Source: an uncultured bacterium (GTDB taxonomy: Bacteria > Bacillota_I > Bacilli_A > Acholeplasmatales > Anaeroplasmataceae). From it: a DNA stretch of 64,000 bases. Where the stretch lies: assembly GCA_949293265.1 (NCBI GenBank), contig CASFCK010000004.1:1-64000 (forward strand). The letters run 5' to 3'. Under the pieces are notes generated by a model. It was not told the origin of the DNA. It searched no databases and was given only the letters and a program-made list of their open reading frames with translations. Position numbers and translations under genes: made by a program. Shown piece by piece: positions 8,415 to 22,418 of the stretch (positions are counted from its first letter, which is position 1; each line of letters opens with the position of its first letter).

Positions 8415-8864
8415 TTATAAGAAAAAATAATAATTATTATTATCGAAATAAGCAATCTTAATTTCTCTATTAGGAGTAATTTTATATTGGTCTAGGTCTT
8501 CTTTTTCTAACCATTCAGAAGTTAAAATTATATTTTTTTCAGCGATTTTTGTTTCAACATAAAATTCATAAACTTTTTCCTTTAAACTTTTAGCTACATA
8601 AGAATTAACAGTAGACACCCTAACAATACGACCAAGATAGAATTTTTCTTTAGCAATTAATTCTTTTAATTTTTTAAAATGTTGGTATCTTTTAAGATTT
8701 TTATATATAGCTATACCTATAAAAAATAAGCCAAAAATTAATAAGAGTAATAATATTCCGATATTCTTTTTTAATAGTCCATAAATTAAACCGATGACAA
8801 TTAAAATCAAACCGAGTATAAAAATAAAAGTATAGTTTTTTTCTTTTCTTGTTAACATAAACAC
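8415..8864 (-). CDS. Hypothetical membrane protein with two N-terminal membrane segments
   Basis: This 149-residue protein has a short basic start, two hydrophobic helices (about 13-32 and 34-52), and a soluble C-terminal half rich in Lys/Glu with several Tyr. I do not recognise a family. It lies 2 bases downstream of the AraC-GH39 regulator on the same strand and is probably co-transcribed with it. A role in signalling with that regulator is possible but unsupported by any motif. Confidence 0.6.
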   Translation of the reverse strand: MFMLTRKEKNYTFIFILGLILIVIGLIYGLLKKNIGILLLLLIFGLFFIGIAIYKNLKRYQHFKKLKELIAKEKFYLGRIVRVSTVNSYVAKSLKEKVYEFYVETKIAEKNIILTSEWLEKEDLDQYKITPNREIKIAYFDNNNYYFFL

Positions 8865-8866
8865 CT

Positions 8867-11332
8867 CTATTTTTGTAATTTTATTTCTATTAATTTAACT
8901 TCTAAAGAATCAAGCAAAGTTTCAATATTTAATACACCTTGATTAATATTTACCTCTTGATATTTATAATCAGGGAAAGAAGCAATTTTAATATTATTAA
9001 ATATGGTATCCTCTAAACTGTTGTAAGTGTCAATTGGAGGCTTACCACAATCTAGCCAACGATCATAAGGGCTACCATGCTTTCTATTAATTGTATACAT
9101 TTGGATTTTGGCCATTGTATAGTCGGTTTTATAAGAAAACAATATTCTTTTTTTACTTTTGTTAACAAACGGTGAATAACGATCTAAGATAGGGACACTA
9201 TATAAATCTTCAGAAATTAAATCATCATTAGGATGCTCATAATTATGGAGTATTAATATGATGTGGGTGTTATTATCATTACTAGATAATATGTGATTTT
9301 CACCGCGAGAAATTATATTTTTTTCTAATCTAGATAAAAATTCTAGGGCGTGCAAGTTTGGTTTAGGCATACCGTTTTTATAATATAATCCTGTTCCACC
9401 AGAAAAATAGTTCATATCCGATAATGTTTCCTCGAAATCGGAAATGCGATAATAGGTAAAAAGTTGACTTTTTTCAATGTTATCAATGATGTTTTTAACG
9501 ATAAAATCAGCCATAAAAATCGTATCATGCAACACATTATAATGACTTATTGTGAAATTATATTGGGCAATAATAATTGGAATTCGCGTATTATTAAAAT
9601 TTAAAATATTTCTAACTTGTTGAAGAAATTTTTGTAATTTATTTTCGTCACTAGTAGGTTTATTATAAGGAATTCTTTGAAAACTTTTGCCTCTTATTGT
9701 ATAAGATTCTAAAGTTTCCCAATCTTCTTCCATATAAAATTCAAGACAAACATAGTTTGGTAAACAAAAGTTTTCTTTTGCCCAAGTGAAGAAGTCTTTA
9801 AACCATTCAATTTTTTTGTTTGTGAGTGGCATAAGTTCGGGAGAAGTTACAATAAAGTCAGAACAAATATCTTTAATTGTTTTCCAAGTTGCATAATAAA
9901 ACTCAAAAAATTCAGTTTTAGTAGAAAAACCCATATAATTATAATCAGTATCTGGTTGACGCCAAGGAATGAAATACCATTTTTTTACTACATCAAGCCC
10001 GTAGCGCTCAATTACATGGCCTAGGAAAGTTTTTAATAATAATTCCCATTCTTCAATTTTATTTGGCGCAGAAGTGTTATATTCATCTGCAAAAACCGTT
10101 TTATTTTTATCGCGAGCTAAAGTTTTAGGCATAAATGTTAATGATAATAACGGGATTAAATCATTAGAAACTAAAAAATCTAAAATTTCATTAATTAAGT
10201 TAAATCTAAAATATAGTTTCCCACTTTTGTTGCGTGAACAAAAATAAAGACTATCAGAAAAAATACCACAAAAATAGACAAATTTAACACCTATTTTTTT
10301 CTTTGCTGTTAATAGTACTTTTCTAATGCTTTCATAAGCTATGTTTCTAGCATTGTTTACAGATACACATAATGTGGCTGGGTTTTCTTTAATGATGAAT
10401 AGAGGCTTTTGACCAGCATAATTATTGATAATAATTTCTTTGTAGAAGCTGCTATTGATATTTTTTTCATTTTCTAGTTTTAAGTCTTTTATTAATTCAT
10501 CTATACCTTTATCTTCCTTAGCGCTTATGTTATCATTGTTTTCGGAATCTTTTTTGTTTTTTCGAGAATCAGATGGTAACTCATTATATTTTTGTTTATA
10601 TGCTCTTAAAAAGGCGTGATTTGAAGCAAAACCGTTTTTTAAAGCTATATCAATAATAGGCAAATTAGTTTCTAATAAATCTTTTAAGCTATGTTTTAAG
10701 CGAACTTCATCATAATAATCAATAAAATTCATATTGAGGTTCTTTTTAAATAAGTTTGATAAGTAGGGGATTGAAAAATTAAATTGAGTAGCTATTTCAT
10801 TTAAAGTAAGATTGTCAGAATAGTTTTCTTCAATATAATCTAATATTTCATCCATTTTTGTTTTTTGACTCACATTAGTTATTTTTGTGGTTGGAAATGA
10901 TGAATTTAATTCATTCATTATAGTATAAGCATAAGCAAAGGCTTTAATTATTGTAAAATTAGGCTTTGCATAATCGTCAACTAATGAAGTGATGATTTTC
11001 TGAAGGTTAAAAAAAACAGATTTGTCTTTGTATTCACAAGAATTACAATAATAAGCTGTTTGATTCAGTTCTTTATCTAGCTCTAAGCGGGATATTTTAA
11101 CTGTTATACAAGCAATTATTCCATTTGAATGTATGATTTGGTAATTTTCTATGTAATTAATTAAAACAATATCGTTTTGATTAAACTGATATTGTTTTGT
11201 TCCGATAATTAAATGTGCACTTCCTTTTAGGTTAAATAGAATTTCTAAATCATTATGTTTGTTATTTATAAATGTTTCATTTTGTAGAATTTTAACTACG
11301 GTTGGATAATTATATTTTTCGATGTTTTCCAT
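8867..11332 (-). CDS. AraC-family regulator fused to a catalytically dead GH39-like domain
   Basis: This 821-residue protein starts with a cupin-like sensor (about 15-100). An AraC DNA-binding domain with two helix-turn-helix units follows (about 158-258, ending K-N-G-F-A-S-N-H-A-F-L-R-A-Y-K). The C-terminal half, from about 300, aligns along its length with the GH39 enzyme encoded at 16502. The enzyme's acid/base motif W-N-E-P-D is here W-R-Q-P-D (Gln459), and the nucleophile motif I-S-E-W-N is I-A-Q-Y-N (Gln590). Both catalytic carboxylates are replaced, so hydrolysis is unlikely. The domain probably binds the sugar that GH39 cleaves. It is transcribed divergently from the transporter-hydrolase operon, which it probably controls. 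AraC-GH39 fusions occur in Firmicutes; the substrate is unknown. Confidence 0.85.
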   Translation of the reverse strand: MENIEKYNYPTVVKILQNETFINNKHNDLEILFNLKGSAHLIIGTKQYQFNQNDIVLINYIENYQIIHSNGIIACITVKISRLELDKELNQTAYYCNSCEYKDKSVFFNLQKIITSLVDDYAKPNFTIIKAFAYAYTIMNELNSSFPTTKITNVSQKTKMDEILDYIEENYSDNLTLNEIATQFNFSIPYLSNLFKKNLNMNFIDYYDEVRLKHSLKDLLETNLPIIDIALKNGFASNHAFLRAYKQKYNELPSDSRKNKKDSENNDNISAKEDKGIDELIKDLKLENEKNINSSFYKEIIINNYAGQKPLFIIKENPATLCVSVNNARNIAYESIRKVLLTAKKKIGVKFVYFCGIFSDSLYFCSRNKSGKLYFRFNLINEILDFLVSNDLIPLLSLTFMPKTLARDKNKTVFADEYNTSAPNKIEEWELLLKTFLGHVIERYGLDVVKKWYFIPWRQPDTDYNYMGFSTKTEFFEFYYATWKTIKDICSDFIVTSPELMPLTNKKIEWFKDFFTWAKENFCLPNYVCLEFYMEEDWETLESYTIRGKSFQRIPYNKPTSDENKLQKFLQQVRNILNFNNTRIPIIIAQYNFTISHYNVLHDTIFMADFIVKNIIDNIEKSQLFTYYRISDFEETLSDMNYFSGGTGLYYKNGMPKPNLHALEFLSRLEKNIISRGENHILSSNDNNTHIILILHNYEHPNDDLISEDLYSVPILDRYSPFVNKSKKRILFSYKTDYTMAKIQMYTINRKHGSPYDRWLDCGKPPIDTYNSLEDTIFNNIKIASFPDYKYQEVNINQGVLNIETLLDSLEVKLIEIKLQK

Positions 11333-11462
11333 GGCTAAATTTTAACATAGATAAATAATTTATGCAATTTGTTTATTTTTTATTTTTGTAATGTGCCGTT
11401 TTTTAAGCTATAACACATAAACATGTTTGTTTTTTAATATAAGAGCCCTTTCACTCGTTTTA

Positions 11463-11475
11463 TGAAAACGTTTCA
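11463..11475. promoter_or_regulatory. Operator-like palindrome in the divergent promoter region
   Basis: TGAAAACGTTTCA has a perfect AAACGTTT core. It lies in the 236-base gap between the divergent AraC-GH39 regulator and the ABC transporter operon. It resembles LacI-family sites but is one base short of a cre consensus. It could bind the LacI protein at 3027 or CcpA. Confidence 0.4.
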
Positions 11476-11568: not shown

Positions 11569-13074
11569 ATGGCTAATGAAGCAGGGGAATTAATTTTTGA
11601 AGCTCAACACATGCACAAAGAATTTGGACCCACCATTGCTTTAAAGGATGTTGATTTTCGATTGCATCGAGGTGAAATTAGAGGCTTAATAGGTGAAAAT
11701 GGTTCTGGCAAATCTACCATTATGTCAATTGCTGCAGGTATGCAAGAAGCCACTTCAGGTAATATGATTTACAAAGGCCGAAAATGGCATCCGAAATCAA
11801 TGCTTGAAGGTCAAAATGCTGGTTTTGCGATGATTTTGCAAGAATCTAATACTATTCCCGGAGTTACTGTTGCAGAAAATTTATATGCTGGTAGAGAAAA
11901 AGAGTTTTCTAAATTTGGTGTTATAAATATGCAAAAGATGTATGCAGCAGCTAATAAAGTTTTAGATAAATTTGGTGTAACTAATATTAGAGGAAACACT
12001 AAAATTAATACTTTAACTTTTGAAGCAAGAAAGTTAGTAGAAATTATTAGAGCGATGGAAAAAGATCCGGAAATTTTAGTAGTTGATGAAACAACAACCG
12101 CCTTATCTTTTGATGGGCGTGAATTGTTGTATAAAATTATTCACGAAATGGCTGAAAAGAATAACAAAGCAGTTGTTTTTATATCTCATGATTTAGATGA
12201 AATAATGAAACATTGTACAGACGTTACTGTTTTACGGGATGGAGATATTGTAGCTACACTTAAAAAGGAAGAATATGACGCTAAAAGAATTAGGACTTTG
12301 ATGGTTGGTAGAGATATTGGCGATGCATATTATCGTGAAGATTTTATTCCATCTGCAGAAACTGAAATTGGGCTTGAGTTTAAAGACGTTAATTTTCACT
12401 CTATTAAAGATTTTAACTTACAAATTCACAAAGGTGAAATTGTCGGAATAGGTGGTTTATCAGATTGTGGTATGCATACAATTGGACATTTAGGCTTTGG
12501 TGCGATTAAGCCACAAAGTGGTAAAGTATTACGTTTAGGTAAAATGGTTAAAAATCCTTCTAAAGCAATTGATATGGGTATTGGTTATATAAGTAAAGAT
12601 AGAGATAAAGAAGCTTTAGTTTTAGAGGCTTCTGTTAAGGAAAATATTTGTTTACCATCTTTAGATAAATTATCACATTTTACTTTTATAAATCCTATTG
12701 AAGAAAATAAAATCACAGATGAACAAATTAAAAATCTAAGTATTAAATGCTATAACCGCGATACTTATGTATCAAAGTTATCAGGTGGTAATAAACAGAA
12801 AGTATCGTTTGGCAAATGGCTAGCTAATGGGTCAGATGTTATTATTATGGATTGTCCAACTCGTGGTGTCGATGTAGCTGTAAAACAAGCTATGTATAAA
12901 ATTATTGAAGAGTTAAAAGAAGCCGGTAAAGCAATACTTTTAATCTCTGAAGAATTAGCGGAATTAATTGGTATGGCAGACAGAATAATTATTATGAAAG
13001 ACTTCAAAGTAACTAAAGAATTTAAAAGATCAGCAAATTTAAAAGAAGTCGATATTATTGATTATATGTTATAG
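11569..13074 (+). CDS. Sugar ABC transporter ATP-binding protein (RbsA/MglA type)
   Basis: This 501-residue protein carries two fused nucleotide-binding domains, as in monosaccharide importers. Domain 1 has Walker A G-E-N-G-S-G-K-S-T near residue 43 and Walker B I-L-V-V-D-E. Domain 2 (from about 265) has a degenerate P-loop (G-G-L-S-D-C-G) but a good signature L-S-G-G-N-K-Q-K. That asymmetry is normal for the family. ATG 11569 follows AAAGGAG. It powers uptake with the permeases at 13086 and 15371 and the lipoprotein at 14102, and is first in the operon running to the beta-glucuronidase. Confidence 0.9.
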   Translation: MANEAGELIFEAQHMHKEFGPTIALKDVDFRLHRGEIRGLIGENGSGKSTIMSIAAGMQEATSGNMIYKGRKWHPKSMLEGQNAGFAMILQESNTIPGVTVAENLYAGREKEFSKFGVINMQKMYAAANKVLDKFGVTNIRGNTKINTLTFEARKLVEIIRAMEKDPEILVVDETTTALSFDGRELLYKIIHEMAEKNNKAVVFISHDLDEIMKHCTDVTVLRDGDIVATLKKEEYDAKRIRTLMVGRDIGDAYYREDFIPSAETEIGLEFKDVNFHSIKDFNLQIHKGEIVGIGGLSDCGMHTIGHLGFGAIKPQSGKVLRLGKMVKNPSKAIDMGIGYISKDRDKEALVLEASVKENICLPSLDKLSHFTFINPIEENKITDEQIKNLSIKCYNRDTYVSKLSGGNKQKVSFGKWLANGSDVIIMDCPTRGVDVAVKQAMYKIIEELKEAGKAILLISEELAELIGMADRIIIMKDFKVTKEFKRSANLKEVDIIDYML

Positions 13075-13085
13075 GAGGATCTTTG

Positions 13086-14075
13086 ATGTCAAGTTTAGTA
13101 GAAAAAATTAAAACTTTTGATTTTAAGAAATATTTTAAAGATCACGCATATTCATTAGTAGCATATACAGGATTAATTCTATGTGTCATCGTGTTTAGTA
13201 TTTTACCGCCAATAATTAATGGTGTTAGCATGTGGACATCAATTGGAATTAGAAATACTATTCAACAAGCTACAGTGTACATGATTTTAGCTTTAGGTGC
13301 TACAATGATTTATGCGATGGGATGTATGGATATATCAGTTGGTTATCAAGTCGCGGTTTTTGCCACACTGTTTGTTATTATTAGTAATGCAGCAGGTATG
13401 ATTGTGGGTTTATTAACCATTTTAGTTTTAGGTATAATTTGTGCTGTATTTAATGCGGTAGTTGGAACGTACATTAAATTACCTACAGTTATGTCATCTG
13501 TTGTTTTGATGCAACTATTTAGAGGCATAAATCAAACATTTTATACAGATGCATCAATAACATCATATGTTTTAGATGTTGATTTATCGATTGTATCATC
13601 CACATGGTTTAGGTTAATATCAATGATTATTTTAGCCATAATAGCTTGTTATATTTTAAACTATACTAAAGTAGGTAAAAGATCAAAGGCTATTGGTGCT
13701 AATAAAGTGGCTGCAGCTCAAGCAGGCTCAAAAATGTTAATTACACGTATTGGAGCCTATTCAGTTTTCTCAGTATTTTTAGTTATAGCTTCAATATTCT
13801 TAATTTCAAGAACAAATAGCATCGGTGAATCATATAGCGCAAGTTTCCAAATGGATGTTATGATGATGTTATTAATGGGTGGTATGCCATTATCTGGTGG
13901 TATGAAAACAAAAATAAGTTGTGCGGTATGTGGTTGTTTAACTTATGTTTTATTAGACAGAGGATTAACTTTATGTTCAGTTGATATATCAGTTATATCA
14001 ATTATCAAATCAATAATATTCTTAGCAATAGTTATTGTAACATGTCGTAAATCAGGGGTTACATTACCTCGTTAA
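13086..14075 (+). CDS. Sugar ABC transporter permease 1 (RbsC family)
   Basis: This polytopic protein of about 329 residues has 8-10 hydrophobic segments and the BPD_transp_2 look of ribose/galactose permeases, including the cytoplasmic loop with G-K-R-S-K-A-I-G-A-N-K-V-A-A. ATG 13086 was preferred over the TTG just before it because it gives 7-base spacing from GGAGG (13074-13078), which overlaps the stop of the ATPase gene. With the permease at 15371 it probably forms a heterodimer, as in YtfT/YjfF-type systems. Confidence 0.85.
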   Translation: MSSLVEKIKTFDFKKYFKDHAYSLVAYTGLILCVIVFSILPPIINGVSMWTSIGIRNTIQQATVYMILALGATMIYAMGCMDISVGYQVAVFATLFVIISNAAGMIVGLLTILVLGIICAVFNAVVGTYIKLPTVMSSVVLMQLFRGINQTFYTDASITSYVLDVDLSIVSSTWFRLISMIILAIIACYILNYTKVGKRSKAIGANKVAAAQAGSKMLITRIGAYSVFSVFLVIASIFLISRTNSIGESYSASFQMDVMMMLLMGGMPLSGGMKTKISCAVCGCLTYVLLDRGLTLCSVDISVISIIKSIIFLAIVIVTCRKSGVTLPR

Positions 14076-14101: not shown

Positions 14102-15349
14102 ATGAAAAAATTAATTAAAACTTTAGGAATTGTTGGTATGGCAGGTGTTGCAGGTTTATCTCTTGCATCATGTGATAATAATAAAAATGATGAAAAAGTA
14201 AAAGTAAGTATCGGTTCATATTTAGGCTATGGTAACACATTATCAGCCTTAGAAGGTTATTTAGATAGCATTAAAGATGATTTGAATTTTGAATATACTT
14301 TAACGCAAATTTCTCAAACTGATGCTAATAGCAACCTATCTAAATTCCAAAATGATTTAGAAACAGGAACAGACTTAATCATCACAATGATGGATAATGA
14401 TGCTCAAAACACTAAAGCTATTTTAGAAGCATGTGAAGAATATGGAGCTTATTTAGCTGGTTGGCAAACAGATTTCAATAACACTAGAGCAAGTGATGTT
14501 GCTGATGAAGTATTAAATAGTGACCATTTCTTAGGTGCCGCAACTGATGGTGAAATGGATGGTAAAATATTAGGACAATATTTATGGGATGCAGTTAGTG
14601 CTTCTGAAAATAGAGTAATAGCTTTAGCTCGTACTCCTTACTATGCATACCCTAGTGGTCATGTTGCTTCAGTAGAAATAGCTAGATTAGCTGAAGAATG
14701 GAATAAGGCAAATCCAGATGATCAATTCACAATTGTTGATTCATCAGAAGGTACTAACGATTTAGGCGGTGTTGCTGATGCTGATGCTGACTTAGCTTTA
14801 AATATGGGTTTTGGTGGTAACTTAGCTGAAACACAATTAGATAAATGGGTTGATGAAGGAGTAGAAGCAATCGTAGCTGTTAATAGTTTAGCCCAAAGAA
14901 TATATTCAACTTTAGTAAGTGAAAATCAAGATAAAAACATTGATTTATATACAGTAGGTTGGGATGATGCTTTATATGGCTCTGATGTATTTGGCTCAAA
15001 AGGAACTATTAAATCATTAGGTCAATCAGTTGTTGAAACTATAATTTATCCACTAATTATGGGAATTAATGCAGTTAGAGGTTATCAATTTAGTGATGCT
15101 CCAACTACAGGTTTAGATAAATTTGTTGAAGGCAAGAGAATAATGTTAACTTCAGATGAAGATATGGAAGCAGGACATAAAAATTGTATGATTTATGCAG
15201 GTGTTGATAAATATGGCGATCCTTCAAGAGCTTTAATTCAAGGTGAAGATTTAGTTAATTATTTAGGTAATGCTGAAGGTGCAAGTTTTGCTAAATTAAA
15301 AGATTTAATTAATTCTTGGGATAAGGACTACGTATTATATCGTAAATAA
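14102..15349 (+). CDS. Sugar ABC transporter substrate-binding lipoprotein
   Basis: The 415-residue product has a lipoprotein signal (K-K-L-I-K-T then a hydrophobic stretch, lipobox L-A-S-C at about residues 22-25). A type I periplasmic-binding fold of the ribose/galactose class follows, so it is anchored outside the membrane and hands sugar to the permeases. The gene lies between the two permease genes, an uncommon order. A YtfQ-like size and the accompanying hydrolases suggest a sugar or short oligosaccharide ligand. The ligand cannot be read from sequence. Confidence 0.85.
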   Translation: MKKLIKTLGIVGMAGVAGLSLASCDNNKNDEKVKVSIGSYLGYGNTLSALEGYLDSIKDDLNFEYTLTQISQTDANSNLSKFQNDLETGTDLIITMMDNDAQNTKAILEACEEYGAYLAGWQTDFNNTRASDVADEVLNSDHFLGAATDGEMDGKILGQYLWDAVSASENRVIALARTPYYAYPSGHVASVEIARLAEEWNKANPDDQFTIVDSSEGTNDLGGVADADADLALNMGFGGNLAETQLDKWVDEGVEAIVAVNSLAQRIYSTLVSENQDKNIDLYTVGWDDALYGSDVFGSKGTIKSLGQSVVETIIYPLIMGINAVRGYQFSDAPTTGLDKFVEGKRIMLTSDEDMEAGHKNCMIYAGVDKYGDPSRALIQGEDLVNYLGNAEGASFAKLKDLINSWDKDYVLYRK

Positions 15350-15370: not shown

Positions 15371-16444
15371 ATGAAAGGACAAACAAATTCTTTTAGTACA
15401 AAAGTAAAAGATTACTTTACTCCTAATAGACTTAAAAGTGCAGGTACAAAAGTTTTTGCCACTATCATTTTTCCTTTATTAATTTATATATTAATGGCTA
15501 TTGTTTGTGCTAGCAATGGTATAACATACAACTTATTCACTTCGACTAGTATAAGACGTATATTAAGTGATACAGGTTATATGGCAGTTGTTGCTCTAGG
15601 TATTGCCTTCCAATTAAAGTATGGTCGTTATGACTTTACTGGTGGGGCAATCCTAGTGGTTGCTGCTACAGTTGGTTCAATGTTTGTATTTAGATTAGGC
15701 TTAAACATGTGGGTAATGTTATTGATATGTATTGCAATGGGAATAGCTTTATCTGTTTTAAATAGTTTAGTTTATGTAACTTTTAGAGTCCCAATTTTAG
15801 TTTGTTCATTAGCAATGGGCTATGTAATAGAGTCATTGGGTGCTTTAATATCAGGTGGAGAATCATTTAATATCTTAGCTAATCCAGCAGCTCAAATAGG
15901 TTCATTCCCTTGGATTTTATTACCATTAGCATTAGCTTTATTGTTAAACTATGCTTATGCTCATTTTACAACAGCTGGTCGTCAATCTATGCTATTACAA
16001 CAAAATCAACTAGCCGCAGTTAATATAGGTATTAATGAAAAGAAAAATGTTATTATTTGCTATATAGTTTCAGGTGCTATGTTTGGTATGGCTGGGGCTA
16101 TTTATGCATCACAAAATATAGTTGCTCCTAATAGTGTGCCACTAGCTACAGTAACAACATTATTTGCTAATATTGTTCCATCTTTAGTTGGATTATTCCT
16201 ATCTAGATTTATCGATGATGGACTAGGAACATTTATAGGTGCATTAACAATTTCAATTTTGTACTATGGCCTAACACTATTAGGACATCAAAATGATGGA
16301 ATTAGAGTTATTTGTTTTGCAACATTCTTATTGATATTTGTCTTCTTTAGTGGTTTCTACGATGAAATATGCAAACTAGTTAAATATCTAATTCATAAGA
16401 TTAAGAAAAGAAAACAAACTAACTTACCGGCAACGGAAACATAA
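15371..16444 (+). CDS. Sugar ABC transporter permease 2 (RbsC family)
   Basis: This 357-residue polytopic permease has 8-9 membrane segments and a basic C-terminal tail. It belongs to the family of the permease at 13086 but is clearly diverged from it. The loop S-M-L-L-Q-Q-N-Q-L-A-A-V-N-I-G-I matches the position of the typical G-x-N-x-x-A-A-x-x-x-G-I loop. AAGGAG precedes ATG 15371. Two different permeases with one fused ATPase fit a heterodimeric channel. A hairpin follows its stop, before the hydrolase genes. Confidence 0.85.
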   Translation: MKGQTNSFSTKVKDYFTPNRLKSAGTKVFATIIFPLLIYILMAIVCASNGITYNLFTSTSIRRILSDTGYMAVVALGIAFQLKYGRYDFTGGAILVVAATVGSMFVFRLGLNMWVMLLICIAMGIALSVLNSLVYVTFRVPILVCSLAMGYVIESLGALISGGESFNILANPAAQIGSFPWILLPLALALLLNYAYAHFTTAGRQSMLLQQNQLAAVNIGINEKKNVIICYIVSGAMFGMAGAIYASQNIVAPNSVPLATVTTLFANIVPSLVGLFLSRFIDDGLGTFIGALTISILYYGLTLLGHQNDGIRVICFATFLLIFVFFSGFYDEICKLVKYLIHKIKKRKQTNLPATET

Positions 16445-16501: not shown

Positions 16502-18061
16502 ATGGAATTATACGTTGACATATTTAAAGAAACATATCCATATAGTAAAACTTGGCAATTTGGCATAGGTAATGATCACGCCTATACATTGACAAGAAAA
16601 GATGTATGTGAATATTTAAAGTTTGTTAAAAAAGAATTAGGATTTAAATTTTTACGCTTTCATGGCATATTTGACGATGATATGCATATATATCAAAGAT
16701 TATCAGATTTTCCATTATTTAGTAAAATGGCTAAAGCTAATAAGATAGTAGAAATAAATTTTAAACAAGTTGGTGTTGTTTTAGATAATATTCTAAACGC
16801 CGGATTTAAACCATATATTGAATTATCATTTATGCCTAGTGCTTTAGCTAGTAAGAATGTTTTAGGATTTCATTATAAAAACAATATAACCCCACCTAAA
16901 TCTTATAAAAAATGGGCAGATTTTATTAAACAATTTATAATTTTTTTAATAGAGCGATATGGTTTAACAGAAATTAAAAAATGGTATTTTGAAGTTTGGA
17001 ATGAACCAGACATTCAGGTAATCTTTTTTAGAGGAACAAAAGACGAATATTTTAAGCTTTATAAAGCTACAGTAAACGCAATTAAAAGTATATCTAAAGA
17101 TATTAAAGTTGGTGGGCCTTCAACTTCTGGTTGTGTATGGATTGAAGATTTTATTAAGTTCTGCGAAGAAGAGAACCTACCATATGATTTTATTTCTACT
17201 CATCATTATCCTGGTGATGGTTTTGGTAATAATTTTGGCCCTGAAAGATTTAAAGAAATAAAAGAAAAAATAAATTATATGGCTAAAAACGGTGGAAGAA
17301 TAAGTACCGCTATGCGTGATTTCTTTTTCCATCCAACTGAATATGTTAAATATCCAAAAGATATATTAACAGAAAAGGATAAAAAATTAAGAGCATTAGT
17401 TCCTAATAAGCCTATTTATATTTCTGAATGGAATGTTTTAGCAGTATATGCTGCTCCAATTCAAGATGAAAAAATGGCAGCAAGCTTTATTATTAAAACT
17501 GCCCTTGATACGAAAAATATTTTAGATGGCCATATGTTTTGGTGTTTATCAGATTATTTTGAAGAACAATTTTTGATTAATAAGCCATTCCATGGTGGCT
17601 TTGGTATTTTAAATAATAATGGTATACCTAAGCCAAATTTCTATGCATTTAAAATATTGAGCATGTTATATAAAAACCGTTTTGATGTTAATTGTGATAA
17701 AATTAAATGCTCATGTTTTAAAAAAGAAAATAAATTACAAATCTTATTATATGAATTCGACTTTGATTATTATAAAAATGAAACTAACGATATAAACATA
17801 AGAATAAATAATAAAATAAACAAAGCATGTGTTAGTTACATTAATGATGTCTATTGTAATCCGAAAAAATATTGGGAGGAATTAGGCTCACCAGAAGTAT
17901 TAAGTAATGCTCAAGTTGAAAAAATTAAAAATGAAACTAAATTAACTAAATTACCACTAGATTATTCTACAAATAATAACGAAACCATTTTAAATGTGAA
18001 GCTAAGTACTAATGATGTAATATTAATAGAAGTAGAATTGGGTGATGAAAATGAACTATAA
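16502..18061 (+). CDS. Glycoside hydrolase family 39 (beta-xylosidase / alpha-L-iduronidase type)
   Basis: This 519-residue cytoplasmic enzyme has a TIM barrel with the GH39 start L-R-F-H-G-I-F. The acid/base is Glu168 in E-V-W-N-E-P-D and the nucleophile Glu309 in Y-I-S-E-W-N. A beta-sandwich-like C-terminus follows from about 400. Family activities include beta-xylosidase and alpha-L-iduronidase, and the sequence alone does not choose between them. The neighbouring beta-glucuronidase makes a uronic-acid-containing substrate attractive. It overlaps the next GH3 gene by 11 bases. The AraC regulator at 8867 carries a dead version of this fold. Confidence 0.85.
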   Translation: MELYVDIFKETYPYSKTWQFGIGNDHAYTLTRKDVCEYLKFVKKELGFKFLRFHGIFDDDMHIYQRLSDFPLFSKMAKANKIVEINFKQVGVVLDNILNAGFKPYIELSFMPSALASKNVLGFHYKNNITPPKSYKKWADFIKQFIIFLIERYGLTEIKKWYFEVWNEPDIQVIFFRGTKDEYFKLYKATVNAIKSISKDIKVGGPSTSGCVWIEDFIKFCEEENLPYDFISTHHYPGDGFGNNFGPERFKEIKEKINYMAKNGGRISTAMRDFFFHPTEYVKYPKDILTEKDKKLRALVPNKPIYISEWNVLAVYAAPIQDEKMAASFIIKTALDTKNILDGHMFWCLSDYFEEQFLINKPFHGGFGILNNNGIPKPNFYAFKILSMLYKNRFDVNCDKIKCSCFKKENKLQILLYEFDFDYYKNETNDINIRINNKINKACVSYINDVYCNPKKYWEELGSPEVLSNAQVEKIKNETKLTKLPLDYSTNNNETILNVKLSTNDVILIEVELGDENEL

Positions 18062-19787
18062 TAAACCGTTTAATCTTGATTCTACAGCTATAGCTTTTAT
18101 TGAAAAAACATTAGAAAACATGTCATTAGATGAAAAAATAAAACAACTTTTTATAGATATGGCAGCCCCAGTTAGAGAAGAAATAGTTGAAAAAATAGTT
18201 AAAACCGAACAAATGGGCGGTCTTCGCTATATGAATCAAGAGCCTAGCAAGGTGAAAGAATTACTAAATTTATATAAGAAATATAGCAAGATTCCCCTTA
18301 TTGTAGCCGCAAACACTGAGGCTGGTGGCAATGGTGCGTGTGTTGGTGGGACTGAAATAGGTCAAGAACTTAAAATTGCAGCCACAAATGATAAAAAATA
18401 CGCTTATCAATTAGGTTATGTTTCAGCATTAGAAGCTAAAGCGGTTGGTTGTAATACAGTTTTTGCTCCAATTGTTGACATTCATTATAATTGGCATAAT
18501 CCGATTATTGCCACTAGAACATTTGGCAATGACGCAAATAAAGTTGCAGAATATTCTTTAGAATATTTAAAAGCTTGTCATGAACTTAATATAGCATCGG
18601 TTTGTAAACATTTCCCTGGTGATGGCAGAGACGAAAGAGATCAACATCTAGCTAATTCAATTAATGATTGTAGTATAGAAGAATGGGATAAAACATATGG
18701 TTATGTTTATAAAACATTAATAGATGCAGGCGTTGAAGGTATTATGGTTGGTCATATTTGTATACCTAGTTATGAGAAATACTATAATCCTAATATCAAA
18801 GACGATGCATATATGCCAGCTACCTTAAGTGAAACGATAATACAAAAATTATTAAGAGGAAAACTGGGCTTCAATGGTCTAGTTATAACCGATGCTAGTC
18901 ATATGGTTGGGCTTACTAGTAGAATGGCTAGAAAAGATATTGTTCCTACGGCAATAAAAGTAGGATGTGATATGTTTTTATTTTATAATGATTTTGAAGA
19001 AGACTTTAATTATGTAAAGGATGCTATCAATAGTGGTTATTTAACAATAGAAAGAATAGATGAAGCAGTTAGAAGAATTTTAGCTTTTAAAGCTCATTTA
19101 GGTCTTTATGAAAAGTATGATGATATTTCTTTGAATAATATAGGTTTAGAAGAAAGTAAAAATATGGCTATAGAAATAGCACATAAGGCCATTACTTTAG
19201 TAAAGAATAAAGAAAAAGACATTTTACCTTTAAATAAAGATAAATATCATAAAATACTACTATTACACCATGATATTTCTAATCCTTTTAATTCATATAT
19301 TACAAATAAAAATAGTAAAAAATATTATGAGATAGTAGCCGATGAATTAAAAAAAGAAGGTTTTGAAGTAGAAATATATACACCTGTATTAGAACAACTA
19401 AAAAAAGCTAGCGATGAAGAGGTTAGAAACATAATGAACAAATTATATACCTCTAAATCAGCTATTAAGCAAATGAAAGATAAATATGATCTAATAATTC
19501 ATTTAGCTAATGTTCCTGGTAATGGTGTTGTTCAAAGAATTGATTTTGCATTAACAAAAGGCGCTATTGATATACCATGGTATGTGTATGAATTACCAGT
19601 AATATTTGTTTCTGTAAACTATCCGTTTCACTTATTTGATGTTCCTCAAGTTAAAACATATATTAATTGCTATGATGCAAAAGAATATACAATGAAAGCT
19701 TTAGTAACAAAATTATTAGGTAAAGAAAGTTTTTGTGGTATTTCTCCTGTTGATGCATTTTGCGGTTGTGAGGATACAAAATGGTAA
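18051..19787 (+). CDS. Glycoside hydrolase family 3, NagZ-like, second copy
   Basis: This protein of about 578 residues is paralogous to the one at 6019. K-H-F-P-G-D-G starts at Lys186, followed by D-E-R-D-Q-H, with the nucleophile Asp281 in V-I-T-D-A-S. There is no signal peptide. ATG 18051 was chosen because it aligns with the paralogue's N-terminus and sits 6 bases after GGTG. In-frame GTG 18042 and ATG 18045 are alternatives. It overlaps the GH39 gene and the HAD gene (7 bases), so translation is probably coupled. The conserved Asp-His dyad fits a retaining beta-hexosaminidase type, but G-D-G in place of G-H-G leaves specificity open. Confidence 0.8.
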   Translation: MNYNKPFNLDSTAIAFIEKTLENMSLDEKIKQLFIDMAAPVREEIVEKIVKTEQMGGLRYMNQEPSKVKELLNLYKKYSKIPLIVAANTEAGGNGACVGGTEIGQELKIAATNDKKYAYQLGYVSALEAKAVGCNTVFAPIVDIHYNWHNPIIATRTFGNDANKVAEYSLEYLKACHELNIASVCKHFPGDGRDERDQHLANSINDCSIEEWDKTYGYVYKTLIDAGVEGIMVGHICIPSYEKYYNPNIKDDAYMPATLSETIIQKLLRGKLGFNGLVITDASHMVGLTSRMARKDIVPTAIKVGCDMFLFYNDFEEDFNYVKDAINSGYLTIERIDEAVRRILAFKAHLGLYEKYDDISLNNIGLEESKNMAIEIAHKAITLVKNKEKDILPLNKDKYHKILLLHHDISNPFNSYITNKNSKKYYEIVADELKKEGFEVEIYTPVLEQLKKASDEEVRNIMNKLYTSKSAIKQMKDKYDLIIHLANVPGNGVVQRIDFALTKGAIDIPWYVYELPVIFVSVNYPFHLFDVPQVKTYINCYDAKEYTMKALVTKLLGKESFCGISPVDAFCGCEDTKW

Positions 19788-20593
19788 AAAAGAAAATTAT
19801 ATTCATCGATTCTGATGGAACAGTAATGGATTCGATGACATTTAAACACTTAAATTGTTTTGGACCGGCTGTTATTAAAACATTTCATTTAGAAAAATAT
19901 GCCAAACCCATTCTTGAAAAATGGAATATTATCAATTTATATTCTTTAACTAGAGGGATAAACAGATTTGATGGAATTGGTATGCTTTTAGAATATGTCA
20001 ATGATAACTTTATTAGAATTAACATATTAGAAGATTACAAAAAATGGCTAAATATAGCTAAAACAAAGTCGAATAAATCTTTAGAAGAATATATAATGAA
20101 TGGACAGATAAATCTAAAACCTATTCTAGATTGGTCTAATTTAACTAATCAATTAATTGATAAATATAAAGATGAAATTAAGCCTTTTAGAAATGCTGGT
20201 GAAGCGATTAGTACTTTAGCTCAAGAATTTAAAATCATAATTATATCTTCAGCTAATAATAACGCAGTTATGCATGAATGGAAAAAATTTAATTTATTAG
20301 CCTATGTAGATAAAGTTTGTACTCAAGAACTAGGAACAAAAGAAGACTGCATAAAACAAGAAATGCTAAATCTAAATTATGACGATGCGATTATGTTAGG
20401 TGATGCTGTTGGTGATCTGGAAGCCGCTAAACACAATAATATTAGTTTTTATCCAATAATGCCAAAAGAAGAAGATAAATCTTGGATTGATTTTAGCAAC
20501 GTTTATAGTAAAATGTTTTATAATAATACATATAACCAAGTGGAAGAAACTGTAATTTCTAGGTTTTTAAATAAACTAGGAAAGGAGAAATAA
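19781..20593 (+). CDS. HAD-superfamily hydrolase
   Basis: This 270-residue HAD phosphatase has motif I F-I-D-S-D-G-T-V-M-D-S at about 8-18, motif II I-I-S-S-A-N, a Lys-bearing loop, and motif IV M-L-G-D-A-V-G-D. A long helical cap (about 40-130) sits between motifs I and II. The ATG overlaps the end of the GH3 gene, so it belongs to the operon. It probably removes or moves phosphate on a sugar phosphate from glycoside breakdown, but the substrate is not predictable. Confidence 0.7.
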   Translation: MVKKKIIFIDSDGTVMDSMTFKHLNCFGPAVIKTFHLEKYAKPILEKWNIINLYSLTRGINRFDGIGMLLEYVNDNFIRINILEDYKKWLNIAKTKSNKSLEEYIMNGQINLKPILDWSNLTNQLIDKYKDEIKPFRNAGEAISTLAQEFKIIIISSANNNAVMHEWKKFNLLAYVDKVCTQELGTKEDCIKQEMLNLNYDDAIMLGDAVGDLEAAKHNNISFYPIMPKEEDKSWIDFSNVYSKMFYNNTYNQVEETVISRFLNKLGKEK

Positions 20594-20594
20594 A

Positions 20595-22418
20595 ATGGCA
20601 AATAAAATGTTATATCCTCAAAACACCTTAACTAGACAAGTTGTTGACTTAAGTGGAATGTGGAAATTTAGTTTTGATTTTGAAGATAAAGGTGAAGAAA
20701 GAGGCTATCAAAATGGCTTAAAAGATTATATTGATATGCCGGTTCCATCTAGTTTTAATGATTTTTTTACCGATAAAAAAAGCAAAGAATATTTAGGCGA
20801 TGTTTGGTATGAACAAACATTTTACGCTGATAAATCATGGAAAAATAAAGATGTAGATATTCGTTTTTTTGGGTGTCTTATTAAAGCTACAGTTTGGGTT
20901 AATGGTATAAAGCTTCATTATCATAATAATGGATTTATTCCTTTTTCTGTTAATATTAATGATGTAATTAATTATGATAAGATAAACACTATAGTAGTTA
21001 AATTAAATAATATTTTAGATAATACCACTTTACCATGTGGAGAATATAAAGTGCTAAAAGATGGTAGAAAAATCTGTACACCATATTTTGACTTTTTTAA
21101 TTATGGTGGTCTCATTAGACCAGTTAAACTTGTGATTACCCCTAAAGATTCAATTATTGATATAACTTTAAATCACGAACTAACTAAGCAAGGTAGTATT
21201 ACGCATTATGATGTTTCACATATAGGTCGTGGCCAAGTGTATGCTGAAGTTTATGATCAACAAGGCAACAAGGTGGCATTTTCTAATGGAACTAGTGGTG
21301 AATTAGAAATATTAAACACTAAATTATGGGAAGTTAGAAATGCCTATTTATATCATTTTGTCTTCAAAGTTATAGAAGGTAATAATGTTTTAGATGAATA
21401 TTATTTAGATTGTGGAATAAGAACGGTTAACGTTGAAGGGAATAGAATTTTAATTAATAATAAAGCTGTTTATTTTAAAGGCTTTGGTAAACATGAAGAT
21501 GCAGACTTTACCGGACGTGGTTACAATTTAGCTGTGGCCAAACGTGATTTTGAATTGATGAAATGGTGTGGAGCAAATAGTTTTAGGACAAGCCATTATC
21601 CTTATAGTGAAGAAATATTACAATTAGCCGAAAAAGAAGGTTTTTTAGTAATAGATGAATTAGCCGCTGTTGGAATGTTAAAATCAACAAGAAATGCGGT
21701 TGATGCCGCTAATAAAAACTTAAAAGTAGAATCATTCTTTGAACAAGATATAGTAAAAAATATAACTATCAATAATCATTTAGAAGCAGTTAGAGAATTA
21801 GTTCAAAGAGATAAGAATTATGCTTGTGTTGTAATGTGGAGTTTATTTAATGAACCAGATGCTGCAAGCAGCGATGATTGTATACCTTATTTTGAAAAAG
21901 TATTTAATTTATGCAAAGAATTAGACGTTCAAAAAAGACCACGCTCTTTTGCCCATATAATTGCCTCTAATCCAAAACACTCAAAAGTTAGTTATTTATG
22001 TGATGTTATAATGCTAAATAGATATTACGGTTGGTATCTAATGGGTGGTGCAGAATTAGAAGATGCGATGATAGCATTAGATGCAGAGCTTTCGGAATGG
22101 GATAAAATTGGAAAACCAGTTATGTTTACTGAATATGGAACAGACAATTATTTAGGTTTAACTAAAATACCCGCTGTTATGTGGACAGAAAATTATCAAG
22201 TTGAATATTTAGAAAAATACCATGAAGTTTTTGATCGCCACGATTCAATTATGGGTGAACAAGTTTGGAACTTTGCTGATTTTCAAACAACAGAAGGAAT
22301 AATAAGAGCAGATGGTAATAAAAAGGGTATTTTCACTCGTGATAGAAGGCCTAAAATGGCTGCATTTGAATTAAGAAGAAGATGGCTTAGCTTGCCAAAT
22401 GATTATAAAAGAAAATAA
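20595..22418 (+). CDS. uidA: Beta-glucuronidase, glycoside hydrolase family 2
   Basis: This 607-residue protein resembles Escherichia coli UidA over its full length. It has the N-terminal jelly roll with V-P-S-S-F-N-D, an immunoglobulin-like middle domain, and a TIM barrel with acid/base Glu420 (F-N-E-P-D) and nucleophile Glu513 (F-T-E-Y-G-T). The N-x-K pair N575/K577 in G-N-K-K-G-I-F-T-R-D reads the glucuronate carboxylate and distinguishes glucuronidases from galactosidases. There is no signal peptide, so it works in the cytoplasm on imported glucuronides. AAAGGAG precedes ATG 20595. It is the last gene of the operon and would feed glucuronate to UxuB. Confidence 0.93.
   Translation: MANKMLYPQNTLTRQVVDLSGMWKFSFDFEDKGEERGYQNGLKDYIDMPVPSSFNDFFTDKKSKEYLGDVWYEQTFYADKSWKNKDVDIRFFGCLIKATVWVNGIKLHYHNNGFIPFSVNINDVINYDKINTIVVKLNNILDNTTLPCGEYKVLKDGRKICTPYFDFFNYGGLIRPVKLVITPKDSIIDITLNHELTKQGSITHYDVSHIGRGQVYAEVYDQQGNKVAFSNGTSGELEILNTKLWEVRNAYLYHFVFKVIEGNNVLDEYYLDCGIRTVNVEGNRILINNKAVYFKGFGKHEDADFTGRGYNLAVAKRDFELMKWCGANSFRTSHYPYSEEILQLAEKEGFLVIDELAAVGMLKSTRNAVDAANKNLKVESFFEQDIVKNITINNHLEAVRELVQRDKNYACVVMWSLFNEPDAASSDDCIPYFEKVFNLCKELDVQKRPRSFAHIIASNPKHSKVSYLCDVIMLNRYYGWYLMGGAELEDAMIALDAELSEWDKIGKPVMFTEYGTDNYLGLTKIPAVMWTENYQVEYLEKYHEVFDRHDSIMGEQVWNFADFQTTEGIIRADGNKKGIFTRDRRPKMAAFELRRRWLSLPNDYKRK

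Follow-up and report, generated by a model that had tools for sequence, protein, structure and literature searches.

An AraC-type regulator with a GH39-fold domain that carries glutamine at both catalytic positions, a candidate non-hydrolyzing sugar sensor

What use is a glycosidase domain to a transcriptional regulator when glutamine stands at both of its catalytic glutamate positions? The question is raised by a gene in a 64,000-nucleotide stretch of DNA from an uncultured member of the Anaeroplasmataceae (contig CASFCK010000004.1; hereafter, the window), which encodes an AraC-type protein with a C-terminal GH39 fold (Table 1). We lean toward the answer that this protein is an AraC-family regulator whose GH39 domain serves as a non-hydrolyzing sensor for a glycoside or sugar imported by the divergently encoded ABC transporter.

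We performed domain and fold analyses of the predicted protein, whose reading frame opens with ATG. Pfam places HTH_18 at residues 180-258 (66.2 bits) and also matches HTH_AraC (40.3 bits), giving the double helix-turn-helix of about 100 residues typical of AraC/XylS proteins. Glyco_hydro_39 follows at residues 323-772 (153.3 bits against a cut-off of 26), so that an AraC HTH and a C-terminal GH39 domain share a single chain, as in AxyR-type proteins. An AlphaFold model built from an input alignment of 33 fusions (mean pLDDT, 83; pTM, 0.69) begins with a beta domain, continues with a helical HTH region, and ends in a barrel with a C-terminal beta domain. The GH39 part of the model aligns with 1w91 at a VIA-align Z of 42.7 (rmsd, 2.4 A over 467 residues), and residues 299-821 match 2bs9 in Foldseek with an E value of 2.5e-40. 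Residues 299-821 have the fold in common with the GH39 beta-xylosidases XynB1 of G. stearothermophilus, XynB of T. saccharolyticum, and XacXynB (Z, 38.7-42.7), from which the protein differs in that both catalytic glutamates and several catalytic-interface residues are replaced. The sequence-only reading had described an AraC regulator fused to a GH39 domain, and both the Pfam domains and the fold match confirm it. Based on the model, the N-terminal beta-rich domain is another candidate for the sensor; the relatives L001, L019, L087, and L092 match Pfam AraC_binding, and the window protein does not.

Table 1. Features of the regulator gene and the divergent operon in the window
Feature	Coordinates	Strand	Basis or remark
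147-aa ORF directly downstream of the regulator	8415..8858	-	
AraC-type regulator with C-terminal GH39-fold pseudo-glycosidase domain (window protein)	8867..11332	-	821 aa
GH39 fold, residues 299-821 (barrel and C-terminal beta domain)	8870..10438	-	VIA-align, Foldseek
Tyr628, replacing subsite Trp (XacXynB Trp317)	9449..9451	-	alignment
Gln590 (CAA), nucleophile position	9563..9565	-	phmmer, MAFFT alignments
Glu531, replacing subsite His (XacXynB His228)	9740..9742	-	alignment
Gln459 (CAA), acid/base position	9956..9958	-	phmmer, MAFFT alignments
Arg458, replacing conserved Asn just before Gln459	9959..9961	-	alignment
AraC double helix-turn-helix, residues 160-262	10547..10855	-	Pfam HTH_18/HTH_AraC
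N-terminal beta-rich (cupin-like) domain, residues 1-150	10883..11332	-	model secondary structure
Conserved 24-bp block in divergent promoter, candidate operator of the regulator	11428..11451	+	4 orthologous intergenic regions aligned
Perfect 13-bp palindrome TGAAAACGTTTCA, cre-like, in divergent promoter	11463..11475	+	conserved in orthologues
Sugar ABC transporter ATPase (RbsA/AraG/XylG-like)	11569..13074	+	NCBIfam, below equivalog cut-offs
ABC permease	13083..14075	+	NCBIfam
Putative lipoprotein, probable substrate-binding protein	14102..15349	+	by position; no Pfam or NCBIfam match
ABC permease	15371..16444	+	NCBIfam
GH39 beta-xylosidase-type enzyme, both Glu intact (E168, E309)	16502..18061	+	
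GH3 glycosidase	18042..19787	+	Pfam
HAD phosphatase	19781..20593	+	
Beta-glucuronidase	20595..22418	+	NCBIfam, 687.9 bits vs cut-off 544

The catalytic positions were located by two routes. A phmmer comparison with solved structures sets wrqp of the window protein opposite wnep of XynB1 (1w91/2bs9), with Gln459 facing the acid/base Glu160, and iaqyn, with Gln590, opposite iteyn; the roles of the two XynB1 glutamates are described in the excerpts available from PMC7242879. When 87 GH39 ORFs were aligned separately with MAFFT, Q459 fell at E168, and Q590 at E309, of the enzyme encoded in the divergent operon. Thus, the acid/base glutamate of the WNEP motif after strand 4 is missing, with WRQP in its place, as is the strand 7 nucleophile, and the earlier assignment of Gln459 and Gln590 was exact to the residue number. 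In the double-Gln clade, the residues two and three places after the tryptophan (W+2 and W+3) are both non-acidic, and the nucleophile position is Gln. Catalysis by this domain is almost certainly lost, judging from the aligned residues.

The double substitution has been retained. Gln459 and Gln590 are present in 4/4 same-locus orthologues, the window protein included, and all four use CAA for both residues and have full-length open frames. Identity to the window protein is 75% in G031, 74% in G034, and 58% in G033, and since G031 and G034 are near-copies at this locus, the four orthologues amount to about three independent lineages. By domain, identity is highest for the HTH (86.4, 85.4, and 80.6% in G031, G034, and G033, respectively), followed by the barrel (77.7, 77.4, and 60.1%) and then the N-terminal domain (72.9, 71.6, and 56.1%). 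Barrel dN/dS by NG86 is 0.060 (window-G034), 0.112 (window-G033), and 0.118 (G034-G033), about as strict a constraint as on the HTH, with values that are rough because dS is saturated. Invariant positions make up 16 of 19 in the pocket (taken from the published list and motif neighbors) and 177 of 331 in the remainder of the barrel (Fisher p 0.009). The loss of both glutamates at all four loci under such constraint agrees with the prediction of a non-catalytic GH39 domain.

We then compared the rest of the pocket with XacXynB, for which the accessible sections of PMC7242879 list 13 key active-site residues. Twelve could be mapped to the alignment by motif, with Tyr284 left unmapped. The usual enzyme residue is replaced at 7 of the 12 mapped positions (XacXynB numbering, window residue in parentheses): H61C (Cys355), N161R (Arg458), E162Q (Gln459), F168M (Met467), H228E (Glu531), E279Q (Gln590), and W317Y (Tyr628). 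Phe414, Tyr533, Phe633, Glu635, and Phe643 are retained. The four double-Gln orthologues are identical at 11 of the 12 positions, the exception being 355 (Cys, Cys, Cys, Met), and Asn161, Glu162, His228, Tyr230, and Glu279 are invariant across 21 stand-alone enzymes. The sequence-only reading held that Gln at both sites preserved the shape of the sugar pocket; this was not borne out, as the changes go well past the Glu-to-Gln pair. The alignment instead indicates a pocket that was rewired and then held constant in the double-Gln clade, beyond simple neutralization.

The ORF layout upholds the claim that the regulator is divergent to the operon with the intact GH39 enzyme. Among eight genus members searched at E 1e-40, the double-Gln regulator and the GH39 enzyme co-occur in G000, G031, G033, and G034, and neither was found in G032, G035, G036, or G037; G032 has a 182-aa frame matching the C-terminal end of the profile. 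In each of the four genomes with both genes, the order of regulator, divergent ABC operon, and GH39 enzyme is kept, and the GH3, HAD, and beta-glucuronidase genes come next in G034 and G033 where the stretch read reaches that far. In G030, from another genus of the same family, the fusion L019 has lost both glutamates (Leu/Thr) and faces a related ABC/GH3/HAD/GH39 cluster in divergent orientation. Of the remaining fusions, those of G000, G037, G035, and G030 (L013) read in context are divergent from ABC transporter genes related to those of the window, and L018 of G033 faces GH3 and HAD genes instead. The ORF directly downstream of the regulator is 40-45% conserved in 3/3 orthologous loci, with a sub-threshold match to DUF4131 only.

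The divergent promoter holds two conserved elements. The 24-bp block was found in 3/3 double-Gln promoters scanned (in G034 it is known from the alignment only), in 0/7 scanned promoters of other fusions when up to 6 mismatches were allowed, and in 0/100 shuffles. The palindrome beside it is cre-like, and we take its role to be catabolite control.

To place the double-Gln protein among its relatives, we surveyed AraC-GH39 fusions in two sets, counting related sequences rather than independent events. The first comprised 65 ORFs with an AraC HTH and GH39, plus 22 GH39 ORFs lacking an HTH, one of which (L014, Thr/Glu) is a probable fusion fragment and was counted apart. The nucleophile Glu is kept in 54 of these 65 fusions and the acid/base Glu in 16 (both in 15, neither in 10), and both are intact in 21/21 stand-alone enzymes. 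The second, from another and partly overlapping genome draw with duplicates removed, gave 17 fusions (nucleophile, 15; acid/base, 7; both, 7; neither, 2) and 26/26 intact enzymes; three of its seven acid/base calls may be misaligned (IGLEG twice and VGMEG). Pooled, the nucleophile is present in 69/82 fusions and the acid/base in 23/82 (nucleophile only, 47; acid/base only, 1; both, 22; neither, 12), against 47/47 enzymes with both. The survey covers part of the matches: frames of about 700-1000 aa were taken, and shorter or much longer ones, such as G909:C636 (650 aa) and G834:C147 (657 aa), were left out; 5 matches were taken from 397 plasmid records; and about 2 candidates per genome were scored in the class- and phylum-wide regulator searches.

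Double Gln occurs in 4/82 fusions, all from one orthologous group, and we rejected it as a general mark of AraC-GH39 proteins; the survey had been proposed to look for this double change. Both glutamates are missing in 12 fusions: the window protein and its three orthologues, L019, L071, three staphylococcal AryK proteins, L120, L173, and L175. The last two (L173:2052-4085 and L175:1185-3608) come from one genome, G684, and have Pro/Ser at the two positions. The sole reverse case in 82, L087:541-3024, keeps the acid/base Glu and has Gln as nucleophile. In the first set, Asp stands at the acid/base position in 13/65 fusions and an acid lies one residue on (W+3) in 5/65; a retained or displaced acid is possible in these because of that residue, and the double-Gln clade has none. 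Acid/base alignment is uncertain in divergent fusions, as the Trp two residues before is missing in 18/65. Some genomes hold many fusions, with nine in G585 (L084, L100, L102, L110, and L112-L115) and seven in G554 (L096, L103, L105, L108, and L117). The window's genome has two more, L001:520-3006, with both glutamates intact, and L003:1090-3534, with a natural Ala at the acid/base position (WNAP).

We inferred a quick, unrooted tree from 81 of the 87 aligned rows (six were dropped) with the catalytic columns left out. A single branch, with SH-aLRT 98, has 62 fusions on one side and 19 enzymes on the other, and the GH39 part of the window protein groups with the fusions. The double-Gln clade, on a long stem of 1.2 changes per column, nests within a group of 17 fusions, some of them intact and from the same genus (SH-aLRT 98). 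Local duplication of the partner enzyme is rejected, the log-likelihood being 112.7 lower when the clade is held with the partner enzymes (AU p 5e-6). Of the proposed enzyme-sensor pair derived from one fold, the shared fold therefore stands, and descent of the sensor from its partner does not, since the two are not sisters. Within the fusions, the tree requires at least 26 residue changes in the acid/base column and 6 in the nucleophile column; Asp321 requires 3, and other subsite positions 11 to 24.

The AraC plus GH39 architecture is already known from AxyR (Lmo2820) of Listeria monocytogenes, and the double-Gln protein is an unusual member of that kind. In the available portion of PMC3534079, AxyR is a bimodular protein with HTH_AraC and a beta-D-xylosidase (XynB) domain, and is hypothesized to control InlJ. 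The Listeria fusion L071 (L071:5527-7902) is probably AxyR because it adjoins inlJ. Like the window protein, it is GH39 by Pfam (34.9 bits against a cut-off of 26) and lacks both glutamates, but it has Pro/Asn rather than Gln/Gln, belongs to a distant clade, and neighbors M20 peptidase and MFS genes instead of a sugar ABC/GH39 operon. The best NCBIfam match of the window protein is staphylococcal AryK (E 1.5e-38, residues 18-409), which is homologous to its N-terminal half, at 132.6 bits, far below the cut-off of 850 for the equivalog NF047455. S. xylosus L033 (L033:9518-11800) is AryK itself (1184.2 bits), and L071 aligns with almost the whole AryK model (475.2 bits). Pfam does not recognize GH39 in AryK; because L071 matches nearly all of this model and carries GH39, a degenerate GH39 domain probably makes up the C-terminal half of staphylococcal AryK. 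AryK has been studied as a virulence regulator, according to the part of PMC3922988 at hand. A Klebsiella-like "AraC/GH39" protein was set aside, as its length is given as 192 in the excerpts of PMC4730625 and PMC5457731. The available sections of PMC2914790, PMC3818352, and PMC9675976 hold nothing on AraC-GH39 fusions, and in our search of the open-access literature we found no description of such proteins losing their catalytic site.

In the mechanism we favor, sugar sensing by the GH39 domain is likely. The ABC transporter would import a glycoside or sugar, which would bind in the rewired -1 subsite without being cut; because Gln replaces both glutamates, the inducer would not be consumable. 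Binding would change how the N-terminal and HTH parts are arranged, and the protein, probably an activator, would then turn on the transporter/GH39/GH3/glucuronidase operon from the candidate operator, with the cre-like site adding catabolite control. The Asn-to-Arg, His-to-Glu, and Trp-to-Tyr changes suggest that the protein does not simply bind what the partner beta-xylosidase cuts. One possibility is an acidic sugar, for which Arg458 and the beta-glucuronidase in the operon are the two grounds.

Other readings differ in where they place the sensor or in what the pocket does. In AraC itself, the sensor is the N-terminal cupin-like domain. If the same held here, the GH39 fold would be a dimerization or scaffolding module with an incidental pocket, which we consider rather unlikely. 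The N-terminal beta domain in the model and the AraC_binding/cupin matches in relatives fit this arrangement, as does the oligomerization of GH39 enzymes through their C-terminal part reported in the accessible text of PMC7242879. However, if the domain were a scaffold, its pocket would not need to be better conserved than the other barrel positions, nor would most fusions need to keep the nucleophile, and conservation is lower in the N-terminal domain than in the barrel. With the nucleophile lost, although 54/61 other first-set fusions keep it, and the subsite Asn, His, and Trp changed, the pocket of the double-Gln clade may no longer bind sugar. Its own side chains (Arg458 with Glu531, Gln459, and Gln590) could occupy it, leaving the domain for protein-protein or allosteric contact. 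N161R and H228E put opposite charges at two subsite residues in 4/4 orthologues, and a tag Arg side chain occupies the -1 subsite of an XacXynB crystal (PMC7242879, in part), but the locus is a sugar operon, and we regard a self-filled pocket as improbable.

The two remaining explanations have very little credence with us. Residual hydrolysis through displaced carboxylates could point to Glu635 and Asp632, which remain in the window protein, and to the W+3 acids of some fusions; yet the window clade is non-acidic at W+2 and W+3, and a retaining enzyme whose nucleophile Glu becomes Gln is expected to lose all turnover. If the domain were unused and decaying neutrally, the long stem branch would fit, but the intact frames, low barrel dN/dS, and invariant pocket would not, and retention of the double Gln in all four same-locus orthologues speaks against decay.

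Sensing by a non-hydrolyzing GH39 domain, the reading we prefer for the window protein, may extend to the family. The AraC-GH39 fusions are enzyme-derived regulators that often no longer cut but keep the fold, probably to sense sugar, and the pattern looks like repeated enzyme-to-sensor conversion. A more detailed version, which we offer tentatively and with more doubt than belief, is that the acid/base is recurrently dropped while the nucleophile, Trp, and pocket floor are kept for a glycoside, and that the double-Gln clade was recharged (Arg458, Glu531) for a different, possibly acidic, sugar reporting operon cargo. An engineered parallel is XynB1 E160A (PDB 2bfg; mutant identity from the excerpts of PMC7242879), which lacks the acid/base but retains the nucleophile, whereas the window protein lacks both; L003 carries the same type of change naturally. 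The 2bfg entry title names bound dinitrophenyl-xyloside and a covalent xyloside in the crystal, and by analogy some fusions perhaps hold their glycoside as a slow or trapped covalent adduct.

The greatest interest of the double-Gln case is the family-wide asymmetry between acid/base and nucleophile to which it led. If the sensing interpretation is true, many regulators would read sugars with retired glycosidase pockets, in the Acholeplasmatales, a Clostridia family (probably Lachnospiraceae), Paenibacillus, Niallia, Enterococcus, Listeria, and Staphylococcus. From its pocket, each regulator's ligand class could then be predicted, and the orphan regulators AxyR and AryK would acquire a hypothesis that can be tested. 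For biochemistry, the window's genome offers a natural series in its three regulators with intact, acid/base-less, and double-Gln sites.
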